This document shows positions 38,793 to 58,377 of a DNA stretch of 64,000 nucleotides, one piece after another. This stretch comes from Hoeflea marina (GTDB lineage: Bacteria > Pseudomonadota > Alphaproteobacteria > Rhizobiales > Rhizobiaceae), in NCBI RefSeq assembly GCF_003182275.1, contig NZ_QGTR01000005.1, positions 124,001 to 188,000 on the forward strand, given 5' to 3'. How positions within the stretch are numbered: position 1 is the stretch's first letter; each line of letters starts with the position of its first letter. The notes under the pieces are model-generated. The model searched no databases. It had not been told where the DNA came from and was given only the letters and a program-made list of their open reading frames with translations. Made by a program: the position numbers and the translations under genes.

Positions 38793-38811
38793 GCCAATGG
38801 AGCGATCTCCT

Positions 38812-38868
38812 TCGGTCCCTTTAGCGACTTATTTAACGTGGCTGCAAGCCGACCGGCCAAATCACCAC
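38812..38868 (-). promoter_or_regulatory. SAM-II riboswitch upstream of metA
   Basis: The minus strand reads GTGGTGATTTGGCCGGTCGG, then CTTGCAGCCACGTTAA, then ATAAGTCGCTAAAGGGACCG: the conserved SAM-II (metA) motif, with its H-type pseudoknot between the GGTGATTTGG-proximal stem-loop and the 3' AAGTCGCTAAA segment. SAM binding lowers metA expression. Its 5' end is only 12 bp after the stop of the diguanylate cyclase gene, so the promoter must be in or before that gene. Confidence 0.92.
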
Positions 38869-38880
38869 AACACCGGGAAA

Positions 38881-44078: not shown

Positions 44079-44146
44079 CTGCGACAGCCAATAGCAGCTT
44101 TTGCGGAGCTTGCCAGAGCCGCGGAGAAATTCTATCTCTTTGGATG

Positions 44147-44239
44147 CTCTAACGGGGTGCCCGGTCGCAAGACCGTGCTGAGAGGCAGGTTGCCAACCCG
44201 AAGAACCTGATCCGGTTTGTACCGGCGGAGGGATTAGAC
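44147..44239 (+). promoter_or_regulatory. TPP riboswitch (THI element) of thiBPQ
   Basis: The conserved blocks are in order: TCTAACGGGGTGC opening stem P1, GTGCTGAGAGG, CCCGAAGAACCTGATCCGG and ACCGGCGGAGGGATTAGA closing P1. It is 46 bp before the thiB ATG. TPP binding should repress the thiamine transport genes. No intrinsic terminator is evident, so control is more likely at ribosome access to the thiB start. Confidence 0.95.
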
Positions 44240-44285
44240 GCCTGCACAGCGCCTATTTCCTGTTTTTTCAACATAGGAGGCGCAT

Positions 44286-52712: not shown

Positions 52713-55700
52713 CTACTTCTTCAACTGGTCGCGAAGCGCGGCCAGTGCAGCGAAGGGCGAATCCGGATCGTATGGCTTGTCCTTGCGGACCGGACGCTCG
52801 TCGCGCTTGCCCTGATCGTCGCGCTTGCCGTGATCATCGCGTTTGGGACGATCGTCCCGCTGGCCGTCCTTGCCCCTGCGCGGACCGCCCTTGGCGCCGT
52901 CGGGTGCGCCGTCCCGCGGTGCGCCGCGTCCGCCGCCACGGTTCGGACCGCGGCCCTTACCACGTTGGTCGCCACGCCCCGCCGGACGTCCGCCGTCCTG
53001 CGGGACCGCCTCTCCGGCAACGGCATCGGCGACGGACTGTCCGTCACCGCGCGGTGTCCGGCCTTCCCCACCCGGCGCCCGCGCGCCGCGATTTGCGTCG
53101 GAACGGCCGCGCTGGCCATCGGGCCGTCCGCCAGGACGCCACAACAGCACCGGACGCGGAGCCTCGGGCTCCTCTGCCTCTGCGGTTTCGGGCACCGCGG
53201 TGTCGGCGTCGCCGGCAACACTGCCGGCGGACGGGGCGGTCGACGCCGCCTCGGGCTTTTGCGGACGCTCGGCGGCGGTGCGGGTGACCACGACCTCCAC
53301 GACCGGACCCTCCTGCTTGTCACCGTCCTTGGCGCGCTGCGCCTCGTCCAGGTCGGCAAGATGCCTGGCGGCCTCTTCGGCGACCACGGCGTCAGCGCGG
53401 TAGCCCAGGCCCTTGAGAATTTCCTCGATGTCGTCCTGGGTGGCGCCGAGGATCGAGAGCATGCCGGTCGTGGTGATGAAGCGCTTGCCGTCATAGGCGG
53501 CTTCGGGCCGCGGGCCGCTGCCGGGAGTCCACTGCAGGGCGGGGCGGATCAGGTCGGCGAGCCGCTCGAGGATGTCGACGCGCACGGCGCGTTTGCCCAG
53601 GAAGCGGAAACCCGCCAGCCGGTAGAATTCGCGATCGATCCCTGGATCGGTCGCCACCGACGTGCGGCCGGCGGCAAGCAGCGGCGTGACGTCGCCGTAG
53701 CCGGACCTGTTCAGCCCGTCATTGGCCAGCGACCACAGCAGGGTGACCAGTTCGGCCGGCGCAGGCTTGAGCAGGGCCGGCATGAAGACGTGATAGGCGC
53801 CGAAGCGGATGCCGTATTTGCGCAGGCTGGCGCGCGCGGCCTGATCCAGGTCGCGGATCATCTCTGTGACATCGCGCCGGAACAGGATGCCGAGGCTTTC
53901 CGCCAGCCGGAAGGCGAGGCCCCTGGCCAGTCCATCCAGATCCTCGGCCCGCGTCAGATCGTCGAGCGGCTTGAGCACCGTGGCGATATGGTGATTGACG
54001 AAGCGGTCGATGCGCGCGGTGACGACTTCGCGCGCATGGCCGGTCAGCTGATCGTCGGCCAGCAGGATCGCACGCGGCTTGAGCACATGGTCTCCCGATA
54101 CCAGCCGGGCGACAGGATCGCCGAGCCAGCGCACGGTCGCATCCGAGCCGATGGCAAAATCGGAATTGCCCGACGCATGCAGCCGGGCGGCCCGCGCTTC
54201 GAACTCCAGCGCCAGCGCCTTCTGGGCGGCGGCAATCACCGCCTTGGCGTCGGGACCCTCCGCCGCCTGGTCTGGGATGAACCGGAATCCGGCCAGCTGG
54301 CCGACATTGTGGCCTTCGACGAACACGTCGCCGTTTACGCTAATTTCTGCTTCAAGCATCGTATTCTCTCTCAGGCGCTTCATGAGCACAGATGTCCTGC
54401 GGTCAACGAAGCGTTTCGTCAACCTTTCATGCAGTGCATCGGACAAACGGTCCTCGATTTCGCGAGTCTTTTCTTGCCAGTGTGTCGGATCGGCAAGCCA
54501 TTGCGGGCGGTTTGATATGTAGGTCCAGGTGCGGATCTGCGATATGCGGGCAGACAGGGTGTCGATCTCGCCGTCCGTCGAGTCGGTCCGGCGCACCTGT
54601 TCGGCCAGAAAATCCTCGCTGACCGCACCATGGCGGACGAGATCTCCATAGATCGTGGCGATCAGGTCCGCATGCTGCGCGGGCGCGATCCGGCGATAGT
54701 CCGGCAGGGCGCAGACATCCCACAACAGCTCCACCGCCTTCGCACCGGTGGCGAGATCGCGGACTTCGAAATCGCTGGCCAGATGCTCGAGGGCGCGCTG
54801 GTCGACCGAGGGCAGGCTGCGGGTGAGGCCCTGCACGGCCGGCACCCGGTCGAGGCTTTCCTGCAACGCGGTGAGGCTGGAAAAGTCGAGCTGCTTCGTG
54901 CGCCATTGCAGGATCTTGACCGGATCGAAGGTGTGGCTCTCGAGCCGCTTGACGAGTTCGTCGCCCATCGGATCGACGCGGCCGGTAACGCCGAAGGTGC
55001 CGTCGCGCAGATGGCGGCCGGCCCGGCCCGCGATCTGGCCGAATTCGGATGGCGTCAGCGGCCGATAATGGAAACCGTCGAATTTGCGCTCATGCGCAAA
55101 CGCCACGTGATCGACGTCGAGATTGAGGCCCATGCCGATGGCGTCGGTGGCGACGAGATAATCGACATCGCCGTTCTGGTAGAGTTCGACCTGGGCGTTG
55201 CGCGTGCGCGGGCTCAGCGCGCCCAGCACAACGGCCGCACCGCCGCGTTGCCGCCGCACCAGCTCTGCGATGGCATAGACCTCGTCGGCCGAGAACGCCA
55301 CGATCGCCGAGCGCCGGGGCAGCCGCGAGATCTTCTTCGACCCGGCATAGAGCAGCTGCGAAAGCCGCGGCCGCTCGATGATCAGCACGCCGGGGAGGAG
55401 GCGCTCGAGAATGCCGCGCATGGTGGCCGAGCCGAGCAGCAGCGTCTCCTCCCGGCCCCGCAGGGACAGGATCCTGTCGGTGAACACATGTCCGCGCTCA
55501 AGATCGCCGGCGATCTGCACCTCGTCGATGGCGACAAAGGCGACATCGGCGCGGCGCGGCATCGCCTCCACGGTGCACACCGAGTAGCGCGCGCCCGGCG
55601 GCGAGATCTTTTCCTCGCCGGTGACCAGCGACACATGGTCGACGCCGACCTTGGCCACGACGCGGCTGTAGACTTCGCGCGCCAGAAGCCTCAGCGGCAA

Positions 55701-55841
55701 GCCGATGACCCCGGAGGAATGCGCCACCATGCGCTCGATGGCATAGTGGGTCTTGCCGGTATTGGTAGGCCCCAGCACGGCGGTGACACCTCGGCCCGAC
55801 AGGATCAGAGGCTCTATGGCGATTTTGCTGGAAATGGGCAT
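52713..55841 (-). CDS. SUV3-like ATP-dependent RNA helicase with long basic C-terminal tail
   Basis: The 1042-residue SF2 helicase shows Walker A GPTNTGKTHYAIE (residues 24-36), Walker B DEVQ in VAFVAIDEVQIAGD, motif III SAT in LLLGSATMRG, and helicase C-domain motifs ATDAIGMGLNLD and QIAGRAGRHLRDG. It resembles the mitochondrial degradosome helicase SUV3. The last 200 residues are low complexity, first acidic, then Arg/Gly/Asp repeats (KRDDHGKRDDQGKRDE), probably an RNA-binding disordered tail. The ATG at 55841 gives MPISSKIAIEPL; the longer frame is unconserved. Confidence 0.9.
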   Translation of the reverse strand: MPISSKIAIEPLILSGRGVTAVLGPTNTGKTHYAIERMVAHSSGVIGLPLRLLAREVYSRVVAKVGVDHVSLVTGEEKISPPGARYSVCTVEAMPRRADVAFVAIDEVQIAGDLERGHVFTDRILSLRGREETLLLGSATMRGILERLLPGVLIIERPRLSQLLYAGSKKISRLPRRSAIVAFSADEVYAIAELVRRQRGGAAVVLGALSPRTRNAQVELYQNGDVDYLVATDAIGMGLNLDVDHVAFAHERKFDGFHYRPLTPSEFGQIAGRAGRHLRDGTFGVTGRVDPMGDELVKRLESHTFDPVKILQWRTKQLDFSSLTALQESLDRVPAVQGLTRSLPSVDQRALEHLASDFEVRDLATGAKAVELLWDVCALPDYRRIAPAQHADLIATIYGDLVRHGAVSEDFLAEQVRRTDSTDGEIDTLSARISQIRTWTYISNRPQWLADPTHWQEKTREIEDRLSDALHERLTKRFVDRRTSVLMKRLRENTMLEAEISVNGDVFVEGHNVGQLAGFRFIPDQAAEGPDAKAVIAAAQKALALEFEARAARLHASGNSDFAIGSDATVRWLGDPVARLVSGDHVLKPRAILLADDQLTGHAREVVTARIDRFVNHHIATVLKPLDDLTRAEDLDGLARGLAFRLAESLGILFRRDVTEMIRDLDQAARASLRKYGIRFGAYHVFMPALLKPAPAELVTLLWSLANDGLNRSGYGDVTPLLAAGRTSVATDPGIDREFYRLAGFRFLGKRAVRVDILERLADLIRPALQWTPGSGPRPEAAYDGKRFITTTGMLSILGATQDDIEEILKGLGYRADAVVAEEAARHLADLDEAQRAKDGDKQEGPVVEVVVTRTAAERPQKPEAASTAPSAGSVAGDADTAVPETAEAEEPEAPRPVLLWRPGGRPDGQRGRSDANRGARAPGGEGRTPRGDGQSVADAVAGEAVPQDGGRPAGRGDQRGKGRGPNRGGGRGAPRDGAPDGAKGGPRRGKDGQRDDRPKRDDHGKRDDQGKRDERPVRKDKPYDPDSPFAALAALRDQLKK

Positions 55842-56020: not shown

Positions 56021-56090
56021 TTAACGGTTGGAACAGCGCCGGAACGAATCGGCGACGAATCGCCGACTCTGCAATGTTTTCTTTTTGTTC
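56021..56090 (+). repeat. Repeat family copy 1
   Basis: The 70-bp core runs from TTAAC to TTTGTTC. It contains GGAACAGCGCCGGAACGAA, then CGGCGA-CGAA-TCGCCG, a perfect 6-bp hairpin with a tetraloop. GAACGAA and TTTGTTC can pair (one G-T) to enclose it. By hand count it is 53/70 identical to copy 3. A TTAACC motif follows at 56178, 157 bp after the start. Confidence 0.8.
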
Positions 56091-56302
56091 ACCGCTAAAT
56101 CTTGCCTGTCCGCGCACGCACACCCACCAGATGCTGAATCGCGCGCCGCCACCAAAATCCGATTCGGCCAGCCTTCGTTAACCTCTGACGCCCGCGGCGC
56201 GATCCGGTGCGGAGGTGGGCGCCAGGTGAGAAAGCAAAAACTGATATTTTAACCATTCTAAATATTTACCTAACGCATCCTGTGGTATTTGGCAGGCCTC
56301 CG

Positions 56303-56372
56303 TTAACTTCCGGAACAGCGGTGGAACGAATCGGCGACGAATCACAGACCTGCGAAAGTTGCGGATTTGTTC
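56303..56372 (+). repeat. Repeat family copy 2
   Basis: Same 70-bp core, starting TTAACTTCCGGAACAGC and ending TTTGTTC with no insertion or deletion relative to the others. By hand count it is 58/70 identical to copy 4, so copies 2 and 4 form one subtype and 1 and 3 another. The inner hairpin is degraded (CGGCGA against TCACAG). TTAACC motifs follow at 56468 and 56523. Confidence 0.8.
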
Positions 56373-56576
56373 TCAACCAGATGTACCGTTCCGAACCGGC
56401 GCGGCGACAAGATGCAGACCTGCGTCCCGGACCGGCAGAAGACTTCGTCGCGAAATCGGCCCGTCTGTTAACCAATGCCGCCTCGGGCGGCTCTCTCCGA
56501 CCCGCCGCCGCGCGCCCGGGCGTTAACCTTTGCCGGGACGGGCAGGCCGAATTTCGCTTGCATTTTAGTGATCACG

Positions 56577-56646
56577 TTAACGTTTGGAACAGCGCCGGAA
56601 CGAAGCGGCTACGAATCATCGACCTCCACAGGTTGGTGCTTTGTTC
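56577..56646 (+). repeat. Repeat family copy 3
   Basis: Same core with GAACGAAGC and GCTTTGTTC extending the outer stem to 9 bp. A TTAACC motif lies at 56732, 155 bp after the start. It borders the VKOR remnant on the 3' side of that gene. Confidence 0.8.
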
Positions 56647-56799
56647 ACCGCTGCATCTGGGCTTTTCGGCGTCACCGGGCACCAGATACAGCACCGGCGC
56701 GGCGACGGCGGCCTCGAAGTCGCCCCTGCCGTTAACCTTTGGCCCGGAGAGCTTGCGCAGCGACCGCCAGTCCCCCGCGGCGGGGCGAGCGCGCACGTC

Positions 56800-57300
56800 G
56801 GTTCGACGAACGCGCACCGGAAGCCTGGTCCAGCTGCCATAGCGGTTGTGGATCGGTCCGCGCGGCAGGCACAGCCCCATGAGAAACAGGACGGCCAGAA
56901 CGCCCGCCGTCCTTTGCAGAAGTGTTGCGCCTGCGACCAGGGATCGGAGGCACCTTCCGTGACCATCTCACGAAGGACCCCGCCGGATAGCGGGCGCAAT
57001 CGTCTTTGCGCCGGGTGTCGTCGACGTCGTGGGGGTTGCCGGTGAAGGCGATGTGCAAGATCGGACGCCCGGCCCTGCGCCGTCTGGCGAGGAACTGGCC
57101 GGTGGCCAAGACTTCATCTGTCGAATGGGCACCCCCGGTTCGGCATTGCCGCCGCCGGCGGGCACAGGGAGCACCACGTCCCGAGCAGGATCTGCTTGAT
57201 GATGATGAGAGTGACCGACACCAGGGCGAGAGGCACGACGATGATGCCGAACAGGACGACGAGCGACGGCAAGTCTTGCCCGGGCCGCGACCCGTCGGCG
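56800..57300 (-). pseudogene. Decayed vitamin K epoxide reductase (VKOR) family membrane gene
   Basis: Pieces of one protein appear in three minus-strand frames. VLFGIIVVPLALVSVTLII and LLGTWCSLC (57146-57266) carry a membrane helix and a CxxC as in [25 protein letters not shown] (57062-57123) continues in another frame. LREMVTEG, then LLQRTAGVLAVLFLMGLCLPRGPIHNRYGSW (roughly 56830-56970) look like the C-terminal part. Frameshifts and a missing middle make it non-functional. The family call is from memory of the conserved pieces. Confidence 0.55.
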
Positions 57301-57419
57301 CATGTCGCCGATCCGTCGAGGCCATCTCCGAAATTGTGCGGGCCTGCTTCCGAATTTTCACGATATCTTAAGAGATTCAAATAATTGCGCATCAGACAAT
57401 GCGGCAGGACCACAGCCCG

Positions 57420-57489
57420 TTAACTTCCGGAACGGCTGAAGAACGAACCGGCGACGAATCACCGACCTGCCATCGTTGGCGCTTTGTTC
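57420..57489 (+). repeat. Repeat family copy 4
   Basis: Same core with TTAACTTCCGGAAC and CGCTTTGTTC. It lies on the other side of the VKOR remnant from copy 3, about 840 bp away. A TTAACC motif in reverse orientation follows at about 57574. Confidence 0.8.
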
Positions 57490-57606
57490 CGTACCAGATC
57501 TGGCCGGCGCGCGCGGCCCGGCCACAAGCCGTGGCGGCGGGCGGCAGTGCGGGACTGCGAATCAGCCGGCAAAGGTTAACGCTGGCGCCTCGCCAACAGG
57601 ATCAAG

Positions 57607-57651: not shown

Positions 57652-58377
57652 TCAGCTGAAGAACTGGCCGCCATTGGCGGAGATGGTCGAGCCGGTGATG
57701 AAGCCGGCCTCATCGGCGGCCAGGAACACGACGGTGCGGGCGATCTCCGAGGGCTCGCCCAGGCGGCCGACGGGAATTTGCGGGATGATGCGCTCGTTGA
57801 GGACCTTCTCGTCGATGGCGCGCACCATGTCCGTGCCGATATAGCCCGGGCAGATGGCGTTGACCGTGATGCCGGCGCGCGCGCCCTCCTGGGCCAGGGC
57901 CCGGGTGAAGCCGATATCGCCGGCCTTGGCGGCGGAGTAGTTGACCTGGCCCGCCTGGCCCTTCTGCCCGTTGATCGACGAGATGTTGATGACCCGACCG
58001 AACTTGCGGTCACGCATCCCGCTCCAGACGGGATGCGTCATGTTGTAGAGCCCGGTGAGGTTGGTGTTGATCACCTCGCCCCACATCTGCGGCGTCATCT
58101 TGTGGAACATGGCGTCGCGGGTGATGCCGGCATTGTTGATCAGGACCGCGACCGGCCCGAGATCCGCCTCCACCTGCGCGACCCCCGCCACGCAGGCCTC
58201 GTAATCGGCGACGGACCATTTGTAGGCCTTGATGCCGGTTTCGGCGGTGAACTTCGCCGCCGCCTCGTCATTGCCGGCATAATTGGCCGCAACCGTGTAG
58301 CCCGCATTCCTGAGCGCGATCGATATCGCCTCCCCGATGCCCCGGGTCCCTCCCGTGACCAGTGCCACCTTGCTCAT
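57652..58377 (-). CDS. phbB: Acetoacetyl-CoA reductase
   Basis: PhbB reduces acetoacetyl-CoA to (R)-3-hydroxybutyryl-CoA with NADPH, the second step of polyhydroxybutyrate synthesis. The 241-residue short-chain dehydrogenase has VTGGTRGIGEAIS at the N-terminus, NNAGITRD, and the Ser/Tyr/Lys active site in NISSINGQKGQAGQVNYSAAKAG. It ends with a family-typical GQFFS. The ATG at 58377 follows phbA by 22 bp, so phbAB is one operon. The polymerase phaC is not in this window. Confidence 0.94.
   Translation of the reverse strand: MSKVALVTGGTRGIGEAISIALRNAGYTVAANYAGNDEAAAKFTAETGIKAYKWSVADYEACVAGVAQVEADLGPVAVLINNAGITRDAMFHKMTPQMWGEVINTNLTGLYNMTHPVWSGMRDRKFGRVINISSINGQKGQAGQVNYSAAKAGDIGFTRALAQEGARAGITVNAICPGYIGTDMVRAIDEKVLNERIIPQIPVGRLGEPSEIARTVVFLAADEAGFITGSTISANGGQFFS

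Follow-up and report, generated by a model that had tools for sequence, protein, structure and literature searches.

The closest described relatives of the element reported here are regulatory sites, replication arrays and small RNA genes. PMC3091678 gives GAACN7GAAC as the LexA site form of alpha-proteobacteria, and the units described below carry GAACN7GAAC half-sites 11 bp apart in the same way. They differ from LexA operators in their GC-rich spacer, in having the half-sites as only one of several conserved blocks, in occurring as 2-5 units ~282 bp apart, and in that the pair is not kept at class level. Like CcrM/GcrA methylation-responsive promoters, the element combines clustered GANTC sites with a position upstream of a conserved gene, and the lineages concerned have a CcrM-type methylase. 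Its conservation is not limited to GANTC, however: ~80 bp of sequence with fixed spacing is conserved in addition, as is the middle base within the core GANTC sites. Iteron arrays of replication origins share the short repeats on a helical step and the AT-rich neighbour, whereas the present element does not lie at a replication origin and varies in copy number and location. The tandem rhizobial small RNAs AbcR1 and AbcR2 are also similar non-coding units arranged in tandem on one strand; in contrast, the units here show no conserved structure, no Rfam match and no consistent terminator.

The repeat was found in four copies in Hoeflea marina, within the window (the whole 64,000-nucleotide stretch of DNA that was analysed). 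As described below, a conserved non-coding element is tied to suv3 in a large part of the Alphaproteobacteria, and the repeat is its Hoeflea form.

The helicase-phaB gap of Hoeflea marina

The pattern TTAAC-N58-TTTGTTC occurs four times in the window, every time within the gap between a helicase gene and phaB, and was found in 0 of 20000 mononucleotide shuffles of that gap; the best 83-mer match to copy 2 across 300 shuffled gaps was 40/83. The ends of the gap are set by the start of the helicase gene, taken as 55841, and by the stop of phaB at 57652. The helicase gene (52713-55841, minus strand; PF22527, PF00271) is Suv3-like and divergent from the units. Its reading frame is open to 55913, and the start at 55841 was inferred from relatives, whose alignment begins near amino acid 25 of the longer frame. 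On the other flank in Hoeflea lies phaB, encoding acetoacetyl-CoA reductase (57652-58374, minus strand; TIGR01829 above cut-off), a neighbour that is not kept class-wide.

All four units are on the plus strand. Measured from TTAAC to GTTAAC, unit 1 occupies 56021-56182 (first GAAC at 56031, TTTGTTC at 56084), unit 2 56303-56472 (56313 and 56366), unit 3 56577-56736 (56587 and 56640) and unit 4 57420-57580 (57430 and 57483). The TTAAC positions agree with those of the first-pass annotation, and the offset of exactly 63 bp from TTAAC to TTTGTTC that it described is present in 4/4 copies. The core identities, counted there by hand as about 76% and 83%, are 62/83 (75%) for copies 1 and 3 and 68/83 (82%) for copies 2 and 4 over 83 nt, with 54-60/83 for the remaining pairs. 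Two other details held in part. The TTAACC motifs lie at 155-165 bp in 4/4 copies as described, but the inversion noted for copy 4 is nothing special, the motif being the palindrome GTTAAC in 4/4; and the hairpin CGGCGA-CGAA-TCGCCG is present in copy 1 but has no counterpart in the other copies. Within its own genome the family occupies one locus only: R1, a sequence-only model built from 56 sequences, matches exactly the four units, while BLAST with copy 2 returned copies 1, 2 and 4 together with three short matches elsewhere and missed copy 3. An AT-rich block (56243-56278, no strand assigned) lies directly upstream of unit 2, and was located from the alignment lists and from a GC dip at -70 to -30.

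The locus had been described as gene-free, which is perhaps not wholly the case. A 99-codon ORF on the minus strand (57117-57413), between units 3 and 4 and outside the array, has a weak match to the VKOR C-terminal family that is below threshold (E 0.004, 17.7 bits against a cut-off of 27.5, with eight gap ORFs tested), and it has no counterpart in other gaps except for one match at E 0.59. Its sequence suggests that it is possibly a decayed VKOR-like gene fragment, and such a fragment would account for the odd 843-bp spacing of units 3 and 4.

Elsewhere in the window, a SAM-II-type riboswitch (SAM_alpha; 38800-38878, minus strand) and a TPP riboswitch (44143-44250, plus strand) scored above Rfam cut-offs. 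Outside the window, the same genome carries a CRISPR-like array (L296, G000:C1:516000-535000), whose first 6.5 kb hold ~36 copies of a ~35-nt repeat, spaced mostly 66-72 nt. A ~300-bp element interrupts this array at five places, in every case directly against a repeat, and its copies are 78-92% identical to the reference copy.

Conservation of the gap within the genus

A search of 61 genomes with phaB as the bait gave matches in 50, and 20 regions were retrieved (16 from the same genus, four from other genera; G008, which has a short contig, is not in this regional sample). Two to five units were found in the same gap and on the same strand in 16/16 of the other same-genus genomes, and also in G030 and G020. 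The first-pass annotation had regarded a lack of copies in any related genome as evidence against its proposal; copies are present throughout these same-genus genomes and beyond the genus. No unit was found in the gap of G026, and G032 has two units upstream of the helicase in another arrangement. The locus L054, in which helicase and phaB are not adjacent in the same way, does not figure in the gap table; two units lie upstream of its helicase.

Neighbouring units are spaced 250-305 bp apart in 40/41 cases from 19 gaps (median 282), the 843 bp of the window being the exception. For 46 of 56 units, from 17 genomes, the nearest unit in other genomes shared the same rank (first, middle or last), compared with a mean of 19.3 and a maximum of 31 in 200 within-genome label shuffles. 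Since rank predicts the nearest relative in other genomes, the array copies are old, position-specific paralogs. A conserved AT-rich block, like TTTGTTAANNATTCCAAACACTTCGTTAACG, precedes most non-first units in the genus, and first units have a different block at this position, which is presumably the helicase promoter. In S. meliloti, a TTTGTTAACCAT motif upstream of 19 genes is reported in PMC3616915.

Anatomy of the unit

With the first GAAC as the origin of numbering, the unit is composed of TTAAC at -10, GAAC at 0 and 11, CGAATC at 25-30, TTTGTTC at 53-59, C, AT and T at 64-71, and GTTAAC near +145, and its GAAC and GAATC half-sites are ~11 bp apart. By our reading, the left part of the Mesorhizobium element proceeds in 11-bp steps, GAACGAGTCTG / GAACGAATCGG / CGACGAATCAC / TGACTC. 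The 60 gap units had first been picked with GAACN7GAAC itself, and were recounted with a model of +19 to +75 only, without that part; this model found 60 units in 19 gaps, with GAACN7GAAC to the left in 59/60, and the single unit lacking it has an 11-bp deletion. The proposal that the indel-free spacing reflects constraint was borne out, as the spacing is indel-poor across unconserved filler. A coding element was rejected, because no frame is open: among 188 elements, the number with a stop ranges from 47 to 188 across the six frames.

The near-complete retention of GAACN7GAAC, and its match to the published site form, are what an array of LexA operators would predict, and suv3 would then be an SOS gene. 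However, the unit spacers are GC-rich, whereas the SOS-type box of the same genome, which lies between genes that we take to be uvrA and ssb, has the AT-rich spacer GAACAAATAAAGAAC. Furthermore, only 7 of 22 class-level matches have both GAACs (most retain CGAATC and a TTYGTTC-like word), and the equally conserved part from +19 to +75 is left unexplained by LexA. From the sequence, we consider LexA operators improbable here; a plain SOS box is unlikely on account of the spacer and the class-level loss of half-sites, and was rejected less firmly than the other candidates.

Distribution across the Alphaproteobacteria

A pattern scan of one genome per species, with the strict filters used for the large scans, gave at least 120 stretches. 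By title, nearly all of the matches listed are Hyphomicrobiales (Bradyrhizobium, Rhodopseudomonas, Nitrobacter, Mesorhizobium, Brucella, Bartonella, Devosia and others), and they also include one Phenylobacterium MAG and one MAG labelled Bacillota. Among these listed matches, a helicase homolog is in the same stretch for 95 of at least 131 elements, and in 95/95 the element lies divergently upstream of that homolog, at a distance of 69-781 bp. The other 36 listed elements, in stretches without a helicase match, are mostly at Bradyrhizobium secondary loci, and some of their stretches simply end nearby (L090, L128). One small divergent gene is in reach, 455-1055 bp off, for 21 of the 26 listed secondary-locus elements that were checked, and the Bradyrhizobium secondary loci probably reflect one ancestral event. 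At loci away from suv3, neighbouring genes were presumptively named GST and M81 peptidase from a reading of their sequences; in L096 and L161, the element is directly downstream of the gene read as M81 peptidase, and in L096 it is beside two genes that seemingly end towards it. In L058, L070, L071 and similar Bradyrhizobium loci, with or without the helicase, a TGTCNCANNNTGCGACG-like word occurs ~35-50 bp before the unit.

Model R1 matched 114/151 genomes of the family, with 37/151 giving no match, and 26/240 genomes of the class, from 16 sampled families, a few of these matches being weak; one weak match, in G257, is far from the suv3 of that genome. Eighteen of the 20 class-level loci that were fetched contain suv3, and by our reading of the result rows the element is upstream and divergent in 18/18. 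In G393 the helicase is ~4.7 kb from the element on the same contig, and in G245 no suv3 match was found.

The relationship was also approached from the suv3 side, with 70 upstream regions, our own among them, of which 30 ranked best and 40 were sampled across the lower ranks. Scores of at least 12 bits were obtained for 14/70, all of them divergent (14/14), and 56/70 were below 12 bits; 0/700 shuffles exceeded 7.6 bits. Because the training set of the model contained class-level loci from some of these genomes, the 14 matches are not independent of the class scan, and G331 is the sole new genome. The element is old and by no means universal. In G290, only the stepped part is left upstream of suv3 (L219), with GAATCA-type words ~11 bp apart (9.0 bits), which may be a minimal or ancestral form. 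Weak diverged units away from suv3 occur in another family of the order (L298, at G055:C1:3892500-3899500, and L299), alongside a suv3-linked unit (L297). A search of open-access full-text literature found no description of the element.

The presence of several copies, and of secondary loci in some lineages, could be taken for decaying mobile or MITE-like elements, as the first-pass annotation had suggested. This suggestion was not supported: the family has one locus in its own genome, its array copies are old paralogs whose rank predicts the nearest relative in other genomes, and the helicase flank is kept both at the listed elements and at class-level loci. Dispersed copies with variable flanks were not observed, with the Bradyrhizobium secondary loci as a partial exception, and a mobile origin is extremely improbable.

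DNA element or RNA

The G-U pair of the outer stem had been taken to favour an RNA read from the plus strand. That reading was not supported, as there is no covariation, no Rfam match and no better folding on the plus strand. No compensatory changes in the stems were detected in 60 or in 56 aligned units, and 0/5 pairs of a five-pair RNAalifold stem had changed on both sides in either set. Copies elsewhere with conserved spacing and covariation had been named as support for an RNA family; the spacing is indeed indel-poor in relatives, but the covariation is absent. In the outer stem, GAACGAA/TTTGTTC, the one variable pair (15-55) was A-T in 9 and A-C in 2 of 160 non-redundant elements, compared with G-T in 96 and G-C in 35, in a table of which ~17-18 rows, of Bradyrhizobium type by our reading, are seemingly mis-registered by one base. 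As the two sides vary independently, there is no dependence at this pair. A matching double change in the outer stem was read by eye in one class-level locus (L196). Many sequences break the possible inner stem: at pair 29-45, the 160 sequences have T-G in 59, T-T in 51, T-A in 44 and T-C in 6.

A search of the window against Rfam at gathering cut-offs gave no match to the units and only the two riboswitches elsewhere, which rules out a known Rfam RNA, the BjrC80 family included, and a search of a Mesorhizobium locus at E<=1 gave one chance-level match only. Minimum free energies, computed for 60 of 97 non-redundant elements, were mildly below those of dinucleotide shuffles whichever strand was folded (mean z -0.7 to -1.3), with a slightly larger effect on the minus strand. 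Plus-strand terminator-like sites were present in 10/223 elements, compared with 5.4 expected in shuffles. A structured RNA was rejected, because no compensatory change was seen, the stem sides are independent, and folding is only mildly better than in shuffles.

A multi-copy family of sRNA genes could nonetheless be envisaged, in which the AT-rich block would drive plus-strand transcription of a largely unstructured RNA of ~160 nt. The single strand of the units throughout, their own upstream block, the tandem ~282-bp module, the extra copies at other Bradyrhizobium loci and the slightly negative RNA z-scores are consistent with such genes; the lack of compensatory change and of an Rfam match, the near-background number of terminator-like sites and the exact spacing across filler argue against them. 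Because exact spacing across unconserved filler suits a protein-DNA complex, the DNA reading appears appreciably the better of the two, and the sRNA family, although a serious competitor, is unlikely.

GANTC sites and chromosome maintenance

The first-pass annotation had drawn attention to GANTC sites, the targets of CcrM, in the cores, and their importance is borne out by a GANTC cluster at suv3-linked copies. In 82 suv3-linked loci, which share ancestry and are not independent, the element contains 6.65 GANTC per 225 bp, a figure to which the search pattern contributes in that two of the sites are partly built into it, compared with 0.33 in the rest of the loci. Outside the searched core, the same loci have 4.17 versus 0.27 GANTC per 184-bp window, a 15-fold difference in density, and the element ties or beats every other window in 73/82. 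The 31 non-suv3 loci show no GANTC excess outside the core (0.45 versus 0.33). GANTC density in the gap is 6.07 per kb, versus 1.69 in the remainder of the window, and units 2-4 have only one or two sites each. In 74 suv3-linked elements the core GANTCs are conserved at their middle base too, and these sites therefore serve more than CcrM. A RAMA-domain methylase match was found in 24/25 element-bearing class genomes (our own left out) versus 143/214 others (p 0.002); within suv3-bearing genomes the difference, 23/24 versus 107/128, is not significant (p 0.20).

Iteron-like steps, GANTC sites, the GTTAAC motif (which we take to be CtrA-like) and an AT-rich block might also be expected of a chromosome-maintenance site for origin, partition or titration functions, and in the seven genomes that have both on one contig, with a suv3-linked element placed, the distance between the element and parS-like sites is 46-452 kb. 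In the complete Hoeflea genome G001, however, 20 sampled stretches showed that the AT skew switches sign, and a clearly negative GC skew rises to about zero, between the contig end and the contig start, beside hemE and 277 kb from the array. oriC was rejected on the distance of this skew switch. The parS-like sites are within ~10 kb of hemE, and not at the element, in 7/8 genomes where both were located, and parS was rejected on this ground. With copy number and sites that also vary between genomes, a maintenance role is very improbable.

A putative protein-binding platform beside suv3

Among the three options of the first-pass annotation, the protein-binding array is the one favoured by the evidence, the RNA and decaying mobile elements having found no support. 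We propose, with a probability of roughly 60%, a DNA-level element: a putative platform of protein-binding half-sites in fixed register, kept beside suv3 and multiplied in Hoeflea to 2-5 units with a ~282-bp period, on which a protein bound to the half-sites and GANTC methylation would modulate suv3 or local assembly. An oligomeric protein would read the GAAC/GAATC half-sites ~11 bp apart together with the inverted GAACAAA (TTTGTTC). At suv3-linked units, GANTC methylation would become hemimethylated as the replication fork passes, and this change would modulate suv3 transcription or local assembly.

The DNA platform is favoured by indel-poor spacing over filler that is not conserved, the retention of GAACN7GAAC in 59/60 units, its single orientation to suv3 (95/95 listed elements, 18/18 class loci and 14/14 suv3-side matches), the GANTC excess outside the core, the old position-specific paralogs (46/56 versus 19.3 expected), the absence of covariation and the closure of every frame in many elements. 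Counted against it are the class-level suv3 genes tested, most of which lack the element (56/70 below 12 bits), the 37/151 family genomes that gave no match, the absence of a GANTC excess at non-suv3 sites, the few GANTCs in units 2-4, the CcrM-type methylase link at p 0.20 in suv3-bearing genomes, and RNA folding mildly better than in shuffles. The element probably controls suv3. Control of suv3 cannot be the whole story, because extra sites exist away from it (for example, L096).

Recognition of non-coding DNA letter by letter across bacterial orders is seldom possible, and here it extends over ~80 bp beside one gene in 16 sampled families of the class, a few of the matches being weak, with cell-cycle methylation sites clustered where the element adjoins suv3. 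A relative of the helicase works in mitochondrial RNA turnover. More speculatively, and with low confidence, the element may be a new regulatory device, in which an oligomeric protein on GAAC/GAATC half-sites, its binding set by CcrM methylation, would let fork passage switch a Suv3-type helicase, with the Hoeflea platform multiplied into a phased ~282-bp array. The binder, once found, would be a new regulator or point to a new job for CcrM, and would provide a handle on the helicase.
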